From the IMG/VR virus record IMGVR_UViG_3300035698_003757, positions 1 through 22,259 of that record: a stretch of 22,259 nt of DNA; one strand, written 5' to 3'. Both the position numbers and the translations under genes were made by a program. Of the stretch, positions 4,739 through 10,399 are shown piece by piece (within the stretch, counting starts at the first letter, position 1; each line of letters starts with the position of its first letter). The stretch is from a virus. The notes below the pieces were generated by a model. That model was not told the DNA's origin, ran no database searches, and saw only the letters and a list, made by a program, of their open reading frames with translations.

Positions 4739-5200
4739 TTAAAACCTACACTTTCTTAGTATACTGTACGCTCCTATCAAAACCACTTTAACAGGCGCAG
4801 AAATTGTTAATTCATATATCCGGTTTCTACTCTTACCGAGTGACCTCCATATAGCCCGTATCCCTCGTTCCCCATATTCCCCTATGCTAACTGCTTCTCC
4901 GGTACTAAAGGTATTACCACCATCATTAGACCATTTAAGTGTAGCTTCAGGAGCAGTACCCCCAGAGAGACCTACTCCAGCTTCAAATTCTATTTCAATT
5001 TTACTATGAAGGACATTATTTTTTTCATTATTAATTATCTGAGTCCGACGTACTCTCGTAATCGCGTCCCCATTGTCAGTGTAGGTATCCATATTAAGCG
5101 CATACAATTTACCATTAGCTTTATCGCCTATTATGGTTTTACCATTAAATTGGATACCACCAGTTATACCCGTCGCACCCCTATGTCGCCCTTGTGCCAT
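4739..5200 (-). CDS. Free-standing duplicate of the gp10-type hub C-terminal domain
   Basis: The 153-aa protein begins MAQGRHR and corresponds along its whole length to residues 354-503 of the preceding gene product; by eye about 108 of 150 aligned residues are identical. Shared blocks include LYALNMDTYTD, AITRxRRTQI, PEATLKWS, AIWRSLGKSR and YELTISAPVK. In P22-type phages this domain (nxDgxT/W-type beta sandwich following the propeller) is the C-terminal part of the gp10 hub protein. Even the gene junction is duplicated: both copies end KCRF, TAA, AT, then ATG of the next gene. No Shine-Dalgarno is visible. It may assemble with the truncated hub protein from 6711-8792. Duplication is seen directly; the role is inference. 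Confidence 0.8.
   Translation of the reverse strand: MAQGRHRGATGITGGIQFNGKTIIGDKANGKLYALNMDTYTDNGDAITRVRRTQIINNEKNNVLHSKIEIEFEAGVGLSGGTAPEATLKWSNDGGNTFSTGEAVSIGEYGERGIRAIWRSLGKSRNRIYELTISAPVKVVLIGAYSILRKCRF
4742..5194 (-). repeat. Duplicated gp10 C-terminal domain, copy 2
   Basis: This is the second copy, carried by the stand-alone 153-aa gene. One extra residue is present in the loop after IIGD. Differences are spread along the domain, so the duplication is not brand new. Confidence 0.85.
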
Positions 5201-5202
5201 AT

Positions 5203-6714
5203 TTAAAATCTACACTTTTTTAGTATACTATAAGCACCTATTATAATAATCTTAACAGGCGCAGAAATTGTTAATTCATATATTCTATCCCTACTTTTAC
5301 CAAGCGACCTCCATATGGCTCTTACTCCCCAATCATCATACTCACCTATACTCGTCGTTTCTCCATCACTAAATGTGTCACCATTATCATCTGACCATTT
5401 AAGCGTTGCCTCCGGGTCATCCCCCCCAGAAATACCTACTCCCGCTTCAAATTCTACTTCAATTCTATTATGTAGTATATTAATCTCATCATCACCAACA
5501 ATCTGTGTTCTTCGTATTCTTGTAATTGCCTCCCCTCCGTCAGTATATGTATCCATGTTAAGCGCATATAACACACCGACATTATCGCCTATTACGGTTT
5601 TCTCATTAAAAAGTACACCACCATCTATACCTACTATGCCCCTGTGCCGTCCTTGAGAGGGAGCATATAGCATAATGGAGTGCTTCCCTCCTATCCCCTG
5701 AGCCACACTGTTAACCTTCCATGTGCCAACTTGTGTTAGTGTGGTTCTGTCGACTTCATCACCTAATCCTAATTGACCATAGTAATTACGCCCAGTTGCC
5801 CATAATGTTCCATCAGTCTTAACCGCCATTGTATGCTGATGCACACAAGACACTATATCCCACACCGACAAACTGCCAACCTGTGTAAACTCAAGTACCT
5901 TAGTGGTTCCACCAAGTCCTAACTGCCCGTACGTACCACTCCCAGTAACCCATAGAGTACCGTCAGTCTTAGTAGCCATAGTGCATGTAATACCACAAGA
6001 AACTGACGCCCACGTTGTTAGCGCACCAACTTGTGTTAGTGTGGTTCTCTCAACTTCGTCACCTAACCCTAATCTTCCATCCGTACCCTCCCCCGTAGCC
6101 CACAATGTACCATCAGTCTTAATTGCCATTGTATGCAAATCACCACAAGCAACAGAGCTCCAGGTTGTTAGCGCACCAACTTGTGTGAATTCCAGCCTAT
6201 CAGCACCCCCACCTAACCCTAATTGCCCTGAACTATCTCGACCAGTAGCCCATAATGTACCGTCGGTTCTAATTGCCATTGTGGATAATGACCCACAAGA
6301 GACCGAAGCCCATTCAGATGACGCTCCAGCTTGAGTAAATGAGTATTTAGTATATAGGTCACCGACTCCTAATTGACCATAGCCATTAGCGCCTGTAGCC
6401 CATATAGTACCGTCCGTTTGTATAGCTACTGAGTGATAATACCCACAAGCAACAGCACTATAGGTTGCCACTACGCTAACTATTGTAAACTCTTTTAACG
6501 TAAAAGCACCCGAGATACCTAATTGTCCATCAAGGTTCCATCCAGTAGCCCATAGTTTACCATCGGATTTAATAGCCATAGAATATAGCTCACCAATTGC
6601 AATATAACTCCACGTTGCCAACGTTCCCGCTTGAGTGAATTCAGTTTTGCTAAGCTTGTCTCCAATACCTAATTGCCCAACAGAACCGGAACCAGTACCC
6701 CATAACGTAGTCAT
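5203..6714 (-). CDS. RCC1-repeat beta-propeller fused to gp10-type hub C-terminal domain
   Basis: The protein has 503 aa from ATG 6714, which overlaps the stop of the upstream hub gene (ATGA) and has GGAAGAG six bases upstream; an ATG at 6729 would add five residues. Residues 1-353 contain seven ~50-aa RCC1 repeats with the motif LWATG....GQLGLGD ... W..V.CG..HTMAIKTDGT, enough for one closed seven-bladed propeller. Residues 354-503 (QGRHR to KCRF) are the gp10-type C-terminal hub domain. In homologous hub proteins I would expect QGRHR to follow the WHEW motif that ends the upstream gene, so the propeller seems to have been inserted at, and to have split, the hub gene. The propeller may be an exposed binding domain on the tail; that is inference. 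Confidence 0.85.
   Translation of the reverse strand: MTTLWGTGSGSVGQLGIGDKLSKTEFTQAGTLATWSYIAIGELYSMAIKSDGKLWATGWNLDGQLGISGAFTLKEFTIVSVVATYSAVACGYYHSVAIQTDGTIWATGANGYGQLGVGDLYTKYSFTQAGASSEWASVSCGSLSTMAIRTDGTLWATGRDSSGQLGLGGGADRLEFTQVGALTTWSSVACGDLHTMAIKTDGTLWATGEGTDGRLGLGDEVERTTLTQVGALTTWASVSCGITCTMATKTDGTLWVTGSGTYGQLGLGGTTKVLEFTQVGSLSVWDIVSCVHQHTMAVKTDGTLWATGRNYYGQLGLGDEVDRTTLTQVGTWKVNSVAQGIGGKHSIMLYAPSQGRHRGIVGIDGGVLFNEKTVIGDNVGVLYALNMDTYTDGGEAITRIRRTQIVGDDEINILHNRIEVEFEAGVGISGGDDPEATLKWSDDNGDTFSDGETTSIGEYDDWGVRAIWRSLGKSRDRIYELTISAPVKIIIIGAYSILKKCRF
5206..5655 (-). repeat. Duplicated gp10 C-terminal domain, copy 1
   Basis: This segment is paralogous to 4742-5194, about 70% identical at protein level by eye. 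It includes the same 3' end and gene junction (TGTAGATTTTAAATATG against TGTAGGTTTTAAATATG). Confidence 0.85.
5656..6714 (-). repeat. Seven tandem RCC1-type repeats (~150 bp period)
   Basis: The DNA encoding residues 1-353 of the fusion protein is made of seven units of about 150 bp. The best-conserved part of each codes TMAIKTDGTLWATG and GQLGLGD. Several units share long runs at nucleotide level (for example the stretches around 5740 and 6040), which points to recent internal duplication or gene conversion. Confidence 0.85.
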
Positions 6715-8792
6715 GACAAACTCTTCCATTCATGCCATTGTTTATCTTTGACATTTACTACCCACGTTTGATCGGCTGTTGGGAAGGATATAACATAAAA
6801 TGTACGCCCCTCTAATGAATAAGTATACGCTAAAGCATCTTCTACCGTTGTGTATGTTGACATTTGGTATTCTATAGCTGAAGTAGAAATAGTTTCAAAA
6901 GAATACCCCCTATTCCTAATGATAGTTTTTTTATTAGATAACCAGTATAAAACACCCTCTATTTCCGCTACTGAAGTTAACGACCCGCACCCTATGTCCA
7001 AAATAGCACCTGGTACTCTTTGAAATGGAAAATCAGCGTTACCAGAGTTATAATATACTTCAGTTGAATACTCCCCAAAAAGCCATATATTTTGACGTGT
7101 CGTTCCAATGCCCACTAAAGTATCTGGTGATGCTTCGGCTGTTGCAAAATCAAGTGAATCCCATGCGTAACCGTCATATAGCCCTGATAATTGTATTTTA
7201 CCAGAATCTTTAACCGACACTATAAAATACCCATCAAAAAATACACAATCTGTTGCTTCTGGGAATTTATCTCCTTCTCCCGGTGAAACCATAGCCCTAT
7301 CGCCAGTACCGCTACCTGCTACAGCTATAAATTCTGTTCCACCAAAAGTTACACTTGTCCATGTGTTATCCGCAGGACTCGTTTCTGTTTTCCATGTAAC
7401 CCCGTCATCAGATGTCATTATTCTATTAGACGTACCCGTATCAGCTACCGCTGCAAAACTACTACCCCCATAAGCAACCGATTGCCAGTTATTATTAGCC
7501 GCGCTAACTCTTATAGTCCATGTAGTACCGTCTGGTGAAGTCATAACCCTATTTCCGGTACCTGAATCAGCTACCGCTACAAATAGCCCACCACCATATG
7601 TAACATCTGTCCATGTGTTATTAGCGGCACTAGCCCTTATAGTCCATGAGATTCCGTTAGTCGAGGTCATAACCCTATTTCCGGTACCTGTGTCGGCTAC
7701 AGCTACAAATGTTCCGTTCCCATACGTTACTGATTGCCAATCGTTATCCGCTGCGCTAGTTCTTGTTGTCCAAGTAATCCCATCTGGGGAGGTAAGAACC
7801 CTATTTCCTGTTCCTGTATCAGACACAGCTACAAATAGCCCGCCACCGTATGCAACACTTGTCCAGTCGTTATCTACAGTCGTTACCCTAAACGACCATG
7901 TAATTCCGTCTTCTGAAGTCATAGCGTTCCAGGAGACACCAGAATCAGATACAGCTACGAATGTTCCGTTTCCGTATGTAATATCTGTCCAATCGTTGTC
8001 AGCACGAATGGAAACAGTTTTACCTATTGCTGTTCCACTCGTGAGTGCGACGGCTAAGGTTACTGTATCCCCAGATGGTGTCCCATTAATAGTCGTCCAT
8101 TGGGTAGTACCGTCATCTAACTCTATCCCTATAGTATCCCCATCGGAAAGCCCGGTAATATCAACTACATCTATAGTAAGATTTGTTACTACCCCAGCTA
8201 CTTTAATAGTGGTAATAAAAATAGCGGGACTTACACCTATCGCCCAAGTAATTCCGTCCGAAGATGTCATTACCCTATTGACCGTACCGTCATTTGATAC
8301 CGCTACAAATAACCCATTCCCGTATGTAACTGCTACCCATGTGTTATCAGCAGCACTCGTTCCCGACGCCCAAACCGCCGCACCATCAGCTATGGCAGTT
8401 AGTAATCCGGTAGTTACAATATACCCTTTATCCGTACTGTCACAAATTAATAATTCTAAGCCATTGTTAGCCATTCCAACATGCCCAGTAGCAGTTGTTA
8501 TCGTCCCCAAACTTGTTTCTGTACCAGCGGAATCAATCTCGTATACTGTGTTTCCTACTATCGCATATAAATAATCCCCCATAACGTGCATACGCCTTAC
8601 TATAGCTGTTTTACCAGTATCACAGAAATCGTCTGTTCCCGGCGTCCCATACATAGCTATAGGTGTTTTACCCTCATTCTTGTCATAAACAGGAAACAAA
8701 TTTATACTCTGTTGGGCATTTATACTTTTCGATCTGCCCTCATATGCGCCACCAAGAAACGGGATTTGAATAGTAGTACCTGGTTCAGCCAT
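6711..8792 (-). CDS. Tail hub / packaged-DNA stabilisation protein, P22 gp10-like, C-terminally truncated and carrying an inserted repeat propeller
   Basis: The protein has 693 aa from ATG 8792, chosen because GGGGAGG lies five bases upstream and the previous stop is one base away. Residues 1-140 (IPFLGGAYEGRSKSINAQQSINLFP ... TPGTDDF) and 515-693 (FFDGYFIVS, LVGIGTTRQNIWLFG, STEVYYNSG, WHEWKSLS) fit gp10-type hub proteins that lie below the portal and gp4 and close the DNA channel. Between them, residues about 148-515 hold seven ~40-aa repeats (YGxGxFVAVxDxGTxNRVMTSxDGxTW). Residues 194-264 are a foreign module also found in the gp4-like neighbour. The usual C-terminal domain is missing here but encoded by the next two genes. 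Function is probable from family and order. Confidence 0.82.
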   Translation of the reverse strand: MAEPGTTIQIPFLGGAYEGRSKSINAQQSINLFPVYDKNEGKTPIAMYGTPGTDDFCDTGKTAIVRRMHVMGDYLYAIVGNTVYEIDSAGTETSLGTITTATGHVGMANNGLELLICDSTDKGYIVTTGLLTAIADGAAVWASGTSAADNTWVAVTYGNGLFVAVSNDGTVNRVMTSSDGITWAIGVSPAIFITTIKVAGVVTNLTIDVVDITGLSDGDTIGIELDDGTTQWTTINGTPSGDTVTLAVALTSGTAIGKTVSIRADNDWTDITYGNGTFVAVSDSGVSWNAMTSEDGITWSFRVTTVDNDWTSVAYGGGLFVAVSDTGTGNRVLTSPDGITWTTRTSAADNDWQSVTYGNGTFVAVADTGTGNRVMTSTNGISWTIRASAANNTWTDVTYGGGLFVAVADSGTGNRVMTSPDGTTWTIRVSAANNNWQSVAYGGSSFAAVADTGTSNRIMTSDDGVTWKTETSPADNTWTSVTFGGTEFIAVAGSGTGDRAMVSPGEGDKFPEATDCVFFDGYFIVSVKDSGKIQLSGLYDGYAWDSLDFATAEASPDTLVGIGTTRQNIWLFGEYSTEVYYNSGNADFPFQRVPGAILDIGCGSLTSVAEIEGVLYWLSNKKTIIRNRGYSFETISTSAIEYQMSTYTTVEDALAYTYSLEGRTFYVISFPTADQTWVVNVKDKQWHEWKSLS
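7248..8351 (-). repeat. Seven ~40-aa repeats (~120 bp period) inserted in the hub gene
   Basis: Units follow the pattern (D/N)N.W..V.YG.G.FVAV.D.GT.NRVMTS.DG.TW. The SxDGxTW part resembles, but is one residue shorter than, sialidase-type Asp boxes. Repeat 1 (residues 148-190) is separated from repeats 2-7 by the module at 8001-8213. Seven units suggest a seven-bladed propeller. Confidence 0.85.
8001..8213 (-). repeat. Module shared with the gp4-like gene, copy in the hub gene
   Basis: Residues 194-264 of the hub protein (IKVAGVV ... GIELDDGTTQWTTING ... ALTSGTAIGKTV) match residues 94-163 of the gp4-like protein. The core 8083-8133 is identical over 51 bp to 9323-9373. Confidence 0.9.
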
Positions 8793-8793
8793 A

Positions 8794-9732
8794 TTACCTC
8801 CCCATGCCCGGTTGAAAGAAAGTAGACGCCTTTTCAGCATCAAACGTACTGGCCATAAATTTGGTTGAAGCCGCTAAATTCTTTAACTCTCTATCTATCG
8901 GAACACCTGTTTTAAGAGCTATACGAACCGCTAAATTAAGAACTATAGTATCCGTCCACTCTGGAGGAAACTCGCCGTCATCATCGGTAGCATCAAAATC
9001 CATAATAGGTACTTTTACAGTCGCTTTTATACGTTGCTGTGGGTCAGCATTAGTAGGCCACACGTGTAAAATTCCGTTAGTTAATTGAGGATCATACCAA
9101 AATTGTGTTACTTGGCCTGTACTGTCCTTATCTGACAACGCCATATACTCTTCTTGTGATATTTTTATTAAAGGAGTTTCATTCTCACTTGAATTAACGT
9201 TACGGGCTTCTATTATTTCAAGAGGTCTTTGGGCTTTGGTTGTATACACATAAACATAATTATCTATAGCCGCAGCACTGGTAAGTGCGGTAGTTAAAGT
9301 TACTACATACGTTGCCGGATCGCCATTAATAGTCGTCCATTGGGTAGTACCGTCATCTAACTCTATCCCTATATAATCCGCATCAGAAATCCCGGTAAGA
9401 CTATCCACTGTAATAGTCGCATCAGCAGCTACCCCTGCTACTTTCATAGCAGTCATTACAACCCCTGATGTAGCAGTAAAATTGTCACCTGACGGTCCTA
9501 ATGAATATGTCTCACCTCCGGATTTAAGGAATAAAGTAACTTTCCTATTTAGCCACAGAAAAATACTCTCTGTCTGCCAGCCCTTTAGCATCATATTGAG
9601 AGTTACACCACCATCTGTAAGCTCCGTAGCCGTAAGTGTAGACCGTATATCAACCGCCCCTATGTACCTGTAGGCCTGTGTTATTAACTCGTCTCTATCT
9701 AAAACAAAATCATACGATCCAGAGGTAGTCAT
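8794..9732 (-). CDS. Head-to-tail adaptor / head completion protein, P22 gp4-like
   Basis: The protein has 312 aa starting at ATG 9732 on the stop of the upstream gene (TAATG), with GGGGG ten bases before. The N-terminal block (residues 11-55: DELITQAYRYIGAV ... LTATELTDGGVTLNMMLKGWQTE) follows the gp4 pattern 'L...A.r.lG.......t..e...a...Ln.ml..wq'. The C-terminal block (256-300: PPEWTDTIVLNLAVRIALKTG ... LKNLAASTKFMAS) also fits this family. Gp4-type proteins bind the portal after packaging and form the base for the hub. Residues 94-163 are a separate beta-rich module, common in the enlarged gp4 relatives of marine-type phages, and it was copied into the neighbouring hub gene. Fairly sure. 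Confidence 0.82.
   Translation of the reverse strand: MTTSGSYDFVLDRDELITQAYRYIGAVDIRSTLTATELTDGGVTLNMMLKGWQTESIFLWLNRKVTLFLKSGGETYSLGPSGDNFTATSGVVMTAMKVAGVAADATITVDSLTGISDADYIGIELDDGTTQWTTINGDPATYVVTLTTALTSAAAIDNYVYVYTTKAQRPLEIIEARNVNSSENETPLIKISQEEYMALSDKDSTGQVTQFWYDPQLTNGILHVWPTNADPQQRIKATVKVPIMDFDATDDDGEFPPEWTDTIVLNLAVRIALKTGVPIDRELKNLAASTKFMASTFDAEKASTFFQPGMGR
9244..9453 (-). repeat. Module shared with the hub gene, copy in the gp4-like gene
   Basis: The module encodes MKVAGVAADATITVDSLTG, then GIELDDGTTQWTTING and a TTALTSAAAIDN tail. It is identical to the hub-gene copy over 51 bp (9323-9373) and similar on both sides. Confidence 0.9.
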
Positions 9733-9968
9733 TATAAATCCCCCGCTGTTACTTCGTTATCCGTAAGGTAATATGGGTCGGGGTCAGGCCGTGGATTAGG
9801 AACTGATTGTCTATCCGCCTTCCCCCGAACAAAATCTTGTGGCTGTCTTGTTTCAAAACAGTCCTCACATACCCACAGACCGTTCCATTCTCTTTTAGTA
9901 TCACTCTGGCGGTATCTCATACCACACTTGTCACATATCCTCCAGAATTGCCCAGGTATATATGACAT
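9732..9968 (-). CDS. Small zinc-ribbon virion-associated protein
   Basis: The 78-aa protein MSYIPGQFWRICDKCG... starts at ATG 9968, overlapping the previous stop (TAATG); a TTG at 9986 is an unlikely alternative. Two CxxC pairs, C12/C15 and C34/C37, enclose a W-N-G-L-W segment, a classic zinc ribbon. The following QPQDFVRGKADRQ and Pro/Asp-rich tail are a pattern I recognise from small proteins in the head-tail joining region of many phages (CDKCG ... WNGLWVCEDC ... PQDF). The biochemical role is unknown; possibilities are a structural metal knot in the connector or a DNA-binding accessory. It is translationally coupled to the gp4-like gene downstream. Confidence 0.8.
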   Translation of the reverse strand: MSYIPGQFWRICDKCGMRYRQSDTKREWNGLWVCEDCFETRQPQDFVRGKADRQSVPNPRPDPDPYYLTDNEVTAGDL

Positions 9969-10399
9969 TATTTTAGTCTCAAGCAAATAGTAATATCATA
10001 TACATCCCCTAAATCAAAACCTGTCGACGTTAGGATAATATTCCCGGTTCTATCCCCATCTTCCCCCGGATCTACAAGCCCACCATTTCTTTTGAAATTT
10101 ATAAAACCATTATTCTCCGTAATTATATAAATTAAACTCAAAGGGGCTCTATCCCAGTTTAAAACTATTCTGGTAAAACCTGTTTGGGAAAATTTAATAG
10201 ACTCAATAACAGTACGAGTACAAATTTCTCCTACTGTTGTACGAAGGTCAGCTATTTTTACTTTTATTACATCTGTTTCCCCTGTGCCATCGCTGACGCA
10301 GGTAAAACGTTTTGTAACTCTTTTCCAACCATTATTGTCGGGAGCATTACCGTCCCAATTAGGAGGGTACACCCACTGTTCGGTTACTGTATCAACCAT
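9968..10399 (-). CDS. Conserved-looking virion protein of unknown function
   Basis: The 143-aa protein MVDTVTEQWVYPPNWDG... has an AGGGGG site seven bases before the ATG. It is rich in beta-strand segments (KRFTCVSDGTGETDVIKVKIADLR, RTVIESIKFSQTGFTRIVLNWD, GNIILTSTGFDLGDVYDITICLRLK) and has no signal peptide or membrane segment. It lies between the 237-aa structural gene and the zinc-ribbon gene, a spot often occupied by a small virion protein of the same look. No family name can be given. It could be a head-decoration or joining protein. Confidence 0.7.
   Translation of the reverse strand: MVDTVTEQWVYPPNWDGNAPDNNGWKRVTKRFTCVSDGTGETDVIKVKIADLRTTVGEICTRTVIESIKFSQTGFTRIVLNWDRAPLSLIYIITENNGFINFKRNGGLVDPGEDGDRTGNIILTSTGFDLGDVYDITICLRLK

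Follow-up and report, generated by a model that had tools for sequence, protein, structure and literature searches.

Domain mosaicism among phage tail proteins is well known, and its source and process usually stay invisible, donor and recipient lying in different genomes. Otherwise unrelated phage proteins have domains in common, and their exchange is described as ongoing in the cited parts of a recent survey (Smug et al. 2023, PMC10684548). Parts of other reports describe the beta-barrel of LKA1 as an insertion domain, the fold of which resembles folds present in the P22 coat protein and V-ATPase (PMC5701251), the barrel of KP34 gp57 as the fingerprint of one class of depolymerases (PMC10653864), and an I-domain borne also by crAss-like capsids (PMC10172136). 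Here we describe a module predicted to be a barrel of this type in two adjacent genes of an uncultured short-tailed phage, known from the IMG/VR virus record IMGVR_UViG_3300035698_003757 (positions 1 to 22,259; this whole stretch of 22,259 bases is referred to below as the window). One copy lies in the head-to-tail adaptor and the other in the neighbouring hub, both genes being on the minus strand. Sequence comparisons make it probable, in our judgement, that an old copying of the barrel from adaptor to hub was followed, in the lineage of the window, by an adaptor-to-hub conversion of one short tract.

The tract occupies positions 9323–9373 in the adaptor gene (the likely donor copy) and 8083–8133 in the hub gene (the likely recipient copy), both on the minus strand, in a shared reading frame and 1240 bp apart. 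These positions form a maximal exact run of 51 bp, and the flanking sequence aligns without gaps over 210 nt at 73% identity (153/210), so that both the 51-bp identity and the alignment of some 70 flanking codons given in a preliminary description of this DNA were confirmed. A run of 51 bp was never reached in 200,000 nucleotide shuffles, nor in 200,000 codon-pair shuffles, of the aligned module. Among the exact direct repeats of the whole window, the sole one exceeding it is a 54-bp tandem repeat (2493/2544), and the next dispersed repeat measures 32 bp. The module as a whole extends over 9235–9465 in the adaptor (minus strand, residues 90–166) and over 7998–8222 in the hub (minus strand, residues 191–265, between blades 1 and 2 of a propeller), limits slightly different from those first proposed. 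Its most conserved part is the hairpin IGIELDDGTTQWTTIN, in which several residues are invariant or nearly so; outside the tract, the two copies in the window are 61% identical in DNA (90/147).

The identities of both genes hold by family, profile and predicted fold. The adaptor gene (8794–9732, minus strand, 312 aa) would encode a P22 gp4-type head-to-tail protein with a middle insertion domain. Its product matches Pfam SU10_adaptor and PHROG Ad3 (E 5e-6), and a profile of 67 adaptors matches P22 gp4 (E 4.5e-4). An AlphaFold2 model based on the 67 aligned adaptors (predicted local distance difference test score, pLDDT, 90) consists of a gp4 core and a compact six-strand unit (residues 92–163), and its fold matches P22 gp4 (9pgg_Ax; Z 16.1, root-mean-square deviation, rmsd, 2.1, 111 residues); by sequence kinship and modelled core fold, the adaptor is thus of the P22 gp4 type. 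The hub gene (6711–8792, minus strand, 693 aa; ATG at 8792 behind GGGGAGG) corresponds to P22 gp10 minus its C-terminal domain. It matches the PHROG head closure family Hc3 (phrog_578, E 1e-68) and P22 gp10 by profile (E 5e-10), and the modelled fold matches that of P22 gp10 (8eap_D; Z 26.6, 293 residues), indicating a body of the P22 gp10 type in both sequence and predicted fold. Judged from its sequence, the hub is a split variant, in which the gp10-type body and the C-terminal domain are not in one chain. Between its N-terminal and body parts lie seven 42-residue repeats (7266–8354, minus strand), modelled as a propeller inserted in the gp10 body (residues 137–508; best match virginiamycin B lyase, Z 31.8). 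This repeat block contains the module, which interrupts it after repeat 1 as had been claimed, and in the weaker hub model the module copy shows the same six strands as that of the adaptor at a nearly constant offset.

For the module, the prediction is a six-stranded beta-barrel insertion domain of the LKA1 or I-domain type. Structures matching the adaptor barrel included 4ru4, 7w1c, 6e0v and 9n71, with Z scores of 9.4–11.8. For the module alone, the best match was the barrel in a tail tube entry of Acinetobacter phage Mystique (9n71; Z 11.8, rmsd 1.8, 75 residues, 20% identity), and matches to tailspikes comprised the K1 lyase 7w1c (Z 10.2), LKA1 gp49 (Z 9.7, rmsd 2.2 over 73 residues) and Phi92 gp150 (Z 9.4). 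Further matches were to tail-tip entries from the phages Chi and lambda and, more weakly, to the I-domain of the P22 coat protein (Z 7.2). The structural alignments are low in identity, and searches with the module alone gave no hit in Pfam and one weak hit in PHROGs. A ubiquitin E1 FCCH domain, suggested by weak Foldseek rows to E1 enzymes, was dropped as a candidate, no phage paper on it being present in the literature listing. The copied unit is a folded domain.

Comparable loci, denoted below by L and a number, were gathered mostly via module or adaptor queries, which biases the overall tally of 190 locus clusters (adaptor with the module in 110, without it in 49, both states in 5). The subset retrieved with hub queries provides a fairer count, although it includes a few contigs already fetched otherwise: here the module was present in 8 of 53 adaptors and in none of 78 hubs, the L003 hub, which runs off its contig, not being counted in the tally of full hubs. 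The adaptors of L003–L008, 77 to 35% identical to that of the window, have the module, and in the more distant adaptors of L009–L012 the N-terminal part passes straight into the C-terminal part without it. An adaptor tree was computed with the module left out (161 rows; module present in 113 and absent from 48). In it the window was placed in starred sets of three and then four adaptors (97* and 98*), and the rows closest to it in path distance are L003, L004 and then L005. Module presence required at least six changes on this tree, so that it has been gained or lost several times in adaptors.

In hubs, the module was found at one position, after blade 1, in the window and in L003 and L004, relatives whose adaptors are 77% identical to that of the window, and separately in L204. 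In L005 the module is present in the adaptor, and the 346-aa hub is devoid of both repeats and module. The simplest history suggested by these sequences is that the hub gained the module after the split from L005. A copying direction from adaptor to hub, as originally proposed, is supported by the sequences, because the three nearest adaptors all have the module and the L005 hub and all 78 queried hubs are without it; the outcome that would have overturned it, hubs all with the module and adaptors without, was looked for and the reverse was found. A query consisting of blade 1, module and blade 2 returned only L003 and L004 again, plus a module-less repeat protein in L272, and the same hub build was not found with it beyond the window, L003 and L004. 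The hub of L004 contains two additional copies of the module, and at the IGIELDDGTTQWTTIN hairpin one copy is nested within another. With the adaptor as query, six contigs of metagenome-assembled genomes were found in genome_contigs; their taxa are mixed and do not identify the host.

A module tree was built of 88 rows, from which 22 duplicate or near-duplicate loci and pieces of fewer than 50 residues were excluded. The hub modules of the window, L003 and L004 grouped with 14 adaptor modules of the kin in a starred set, and a single clade of hub modules was not rejected (approximately unbiased, AU, test, p = 0.54). The adaptor module nearest by path to the window's hub module is that of L013 and not its own, as might be expected if the hub module had come from an adaptor or tail protein of another phage and only the 51-bp tract from the resident adaptor. 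We regard such a foreign source as possible, albeit not likely: a clade of the window's two modules was not rejected either (AU p = 0.54), and the position of the three hub modules among kin adaptor modules makes a distant source unlikely.

Codon-level comparisons covered 51 modules from 32 chosen genomes, giving 1275 pairs (21 within and 1254 between genomes); pieces shorter than 46 residues, and hence also the split outer copy of L004, were excluded. Within the tract, all 16 whole codons of the window pair are the same, compared with 14 of 50 outside it; third positions agree at 16/16 versus 28/50, and codons for the same residue are identical in 15/15 versus 14/24 cases (Fisher p = 0.003). 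The second-best tract score of all 1275 pairs, 12/16, was again obtained inside one genome, between the L018 adaptor and an upstream copy, and the best between-genome score was 10/16 codons, with a longest between-genome exact run of 30 bp. This L018 pair has a 26-bp run and 27 of 43 codons in common where codon usage predicts 0.32. The tract does coincide with the truly most conserved part of the module, with its invariant or nearly invariant residues, and one could suppose that no exchange took place and that protein selection held the hairpin of two old copies identical. The silent positions are identical too, however, and conservation of the protein fails to explain the tract, since the 37 between-genome pairs with at least 15 of 16 identical tract residues reach at most 9/16 same codons, and the codon usage of the window predicts a same-codon frequency of only 0.37; we consider this explanation highly improbable.

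The same comparison bears on the age of the insertion. A same-codon frequency outside the tract (14/24) in excess of the expected 0.37 is in keeping with recent copying of the whole module from adaptor to hub, as first proposed, and fast divergence of the remainder. Yet the modules at one place in the L003 and L004 hubs and a DNA identity of only 61% outside the tract speak against recent copying of the whole module, to which we give a slim chance. On this sequence evidence, the insertion looks older than the 51-bp tract, being at the same hub position in two diverged relatives. The tract itself is best read as a later gene conversion of 51 bp or slightly more, a process that we infer from the codon pattern.

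A misassembled repeat was also considered, given that the window is an IMG/VR virus record in a metagenome contig and that the tract occurs in no second contig (an exact 47-base probe of the tract hit 0 contigs in viral_contigs). Both copies nevertheless lie in intact, in-frame genes with flanks each belonging to the right gene, a switch between repeats would have joined adaptor and hub halves, and the module is at that place of the hub in two other contigs, all of which makes an assembly artefact extremely unlikely.

With respect to direction within the tract, its residues agree with those of 13 kin adaptors at 12–15 of 16 positions, and with those of the L003 hub and two L004 hub copies at 9–11 of 16. 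The tract is therefore adaptor-like, and the hub looks like the recipient. Three features coincide in one and the same hairpin: the tract of the window, the run common to the L018 copies (LDDGTLQWT) and the point of nesting in L004 (after GIKID, before DDGVTQWT). Such a coincidence is expected where recombination begins in the longest nearly identical stretch.

Collectively, these data point to a history in which adaptors of the window lineage bore a six-stranded barrel as an insertion domain. The whole folded barrel would have been copied, in an ancestor of the window phage, L003 and L004, from a kin adaptor into a propeller loop of the neighbouring hub, between blades 1 and 2 of a seven-blade propeller, likewise an acquisition of the hub. 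Long after, in the lineage of the window, the two copies may have recombined over the IGIELDDGTTQWTTIN hairpin, the hub taking the adaptor sequence. Judging by the fold and by known cases, such barrels probably enter and leave the host chain at close points, allowing insertion in a loop without breaking the protein. Precedents for the fold also suggest a role: in the virion, the barrels may protrude as knobs from neighbouring rings and provide additional contacts or surface, and the barrel of the adaptor ring is, by analogy, most likely an outward knob adding contacts between subunits or to adjacent tail parts.

Several observations weigh against this history or narrow its scope. The module trees (67 columns) are too short to resolve one versus several hub insertions, the hub module of the window is no closer to those of L003 and L004 than to adaptor modules, and the L003 hub module forms a long branch; separate insertions at one site, or a later replacement, would be compatible with such a tree. 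The pLDDT of the hub model is 69, and about 40–60 over most of the module. Conversion does not appear to be general, in that the 19 within-genome pairs other than those of the window and L018 have runs of at most 19 bp (5–9 bp in 18 of them), and the adaptor and hub of L003 have only 6/21 same codons and those of L004 (first hub copy) 16/43, the synonymous sites appearing saturated. The adaptor-likeness of the tract rests on hub modules of two genomes, which evolve faster, and is support rather than proof of direction; the split outer copy of L004, which stands outside the scored set, is closer to the tract by eye. With no contig hit by the tract probe, there is likewise no very near relative to show the state before exchange.

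The idea of a small mobile module held in part: a domain moving among tail-machine genes is supported by the data, and a mobile element with its own ends is not. When the module ends were checked for short direct repeats, only the trinucleotide GCT was common to the hub junctions, though an old insertion could have lost its duplication. A search for the module in other phage proteins found it also in an open reading frame (ORF) that lies upstream of the adaptor, and as a separate case in the L204 hub. In the window this small ORF (9732–9986, minus strand) has a zinc-ribbon-like N-terminal motif, named by eye, and is without the module; counterparts in other phages bear it, mostly C-terminally, in 17 of 164 adaptor-bearing clusters. 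Thirteen rows of the module tree are upstream-ORF copies, which form two old groups, apart from those of L018 and L045, placed among adaptor modules; in L045 the adaptor is without the module and the upstream ORF has it. It is tempting, if rather doubtful, to see the neck operon as a parts bank within the genome, in which the adaptor barrel would be re-copied to the hub and upstream ORF and re-synchronised at the hairpin, the knobs evolving in concert.

Adaptor genes also occur in duplicate. In L074 (4125–5744) and L075, a single ORF is a tandem fusion of two adaptors, of which only the second has the module, and L033, L242 and L257 have two adjacent adaptor ORFs, one with and one without it.

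Downstream of the hub, an ORF at 5203–6729 (minus strand; an ATG at 6714 overlaps the hub stop) encodes an RCC1-type propeller followed by the missing C-terminal domain of the hub (5206–5655), and a second, stand-alone C-terminal domain of 153 aa is encoded at 4739–5200 (minus strand). These two domain copies are 72% identical and have a 32-bp identical stretch, a weaker case than the 51-bp tract, as this length was reached in 365 of 20,000 codon shuffles. A separate ORF for the C-terminal domain was also seen in L004, L005, L013–L015, L020, L021, L024, L035, L043 and L074. Often it is preceded by a repeat domain, the type of which varies across the kin group: RCC1 in the window, L024 (read from sequence), L035 and L043, and kelch-like repeats, named mostly by eye, in L004, L005 and L015. 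Elsewhere in the window, the 54-bp tandem repeat belongs to a 51-bp unit (2493–2597, exact over 54 bp) at the start of an 878-aa minus-strand ORF with DAFDTAAAQWQPPEQEQ repeats.

Hubs of other phages carry further domains. In the 944-aa hub of L204 (4928–7759), an inserted Laminin_G_3 domain separates the N-terminal part from the body, and the barrel module lies after the body and before the C-terminal domain. The module-less protein of L272 (3830–5047) stands alone and consists of about seven of the 42-residue repeats of the hub propeller, suggesting that the propeller itself also moves between phage proteins. The loop between N-terminal part and body of the hub is a loading site, occupied by the propeller in the window group and by the LamG-like domain in L204, and the junction of body and C-terminal domain is another. 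This points to the hub as a place into which different surface domains can be loaded interchangeably, be it a propeller, a LamG lectin-like domain or a barrel.

In this uncultured short-tailed phage, the tail machine appears to have been remodelled from parts that it already owned. The probable donor and recipient genes lie side by side, the direction of the event can be read from relatives, and the later exchange has left its mark as a tract at the codon level. The locus offers a testable case of neck proteins gaining domains by the copying of a resident barrel, followed by recombination between the imperfect copies. Among the titles listed by literature searches on gene conversion of paralogous phage tail genes and on adaptor insertion domains there was none on this case, and a search on domain shuffling with gene conversion listed no paper.

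Compared with known systems, the closest likeness in fold, the Mystique barrel (9n71), sits in a different host protein. The barrels of the tailspike depolymerases LKA1 gp49, phi297 gp61, AP22 gp54 and KP34 gp57 are six-stranded and plugged into another domain, as here; they shape a sugar-cleaving groove on a beta-helix, whereas those of the window are predicted to lie in an adaptor ring protein and a hub. The I-domains of the P22 coat and crAss-like capsids similarly represent a barrel inserted in a virion structural protein, but in the capsid shell and not the tail machine, and given the weak score only the arrangement is claimed as common. For the proposed recombination of imperfect copies, the cited part of an experimental study on phage lambda offers a precedent, Red recombining DNA with 22% divergence (Martinsohn et al. 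2008, PMC2327257), a value close to the 27% by which the two window modules differ. The survey of shared phage domains mentioned above compared proteins across genomes and, in the parts cited, takes no position on process; neither 'intragenomic' nor 'within the same genome' is used in its main text (PMC10684548). The fold and the principle are known, and the new element is a well-resolved within-genome case, in which the probable source gene adjoins the probable recipient in the same genome, the two being linked by a codon-level tract.

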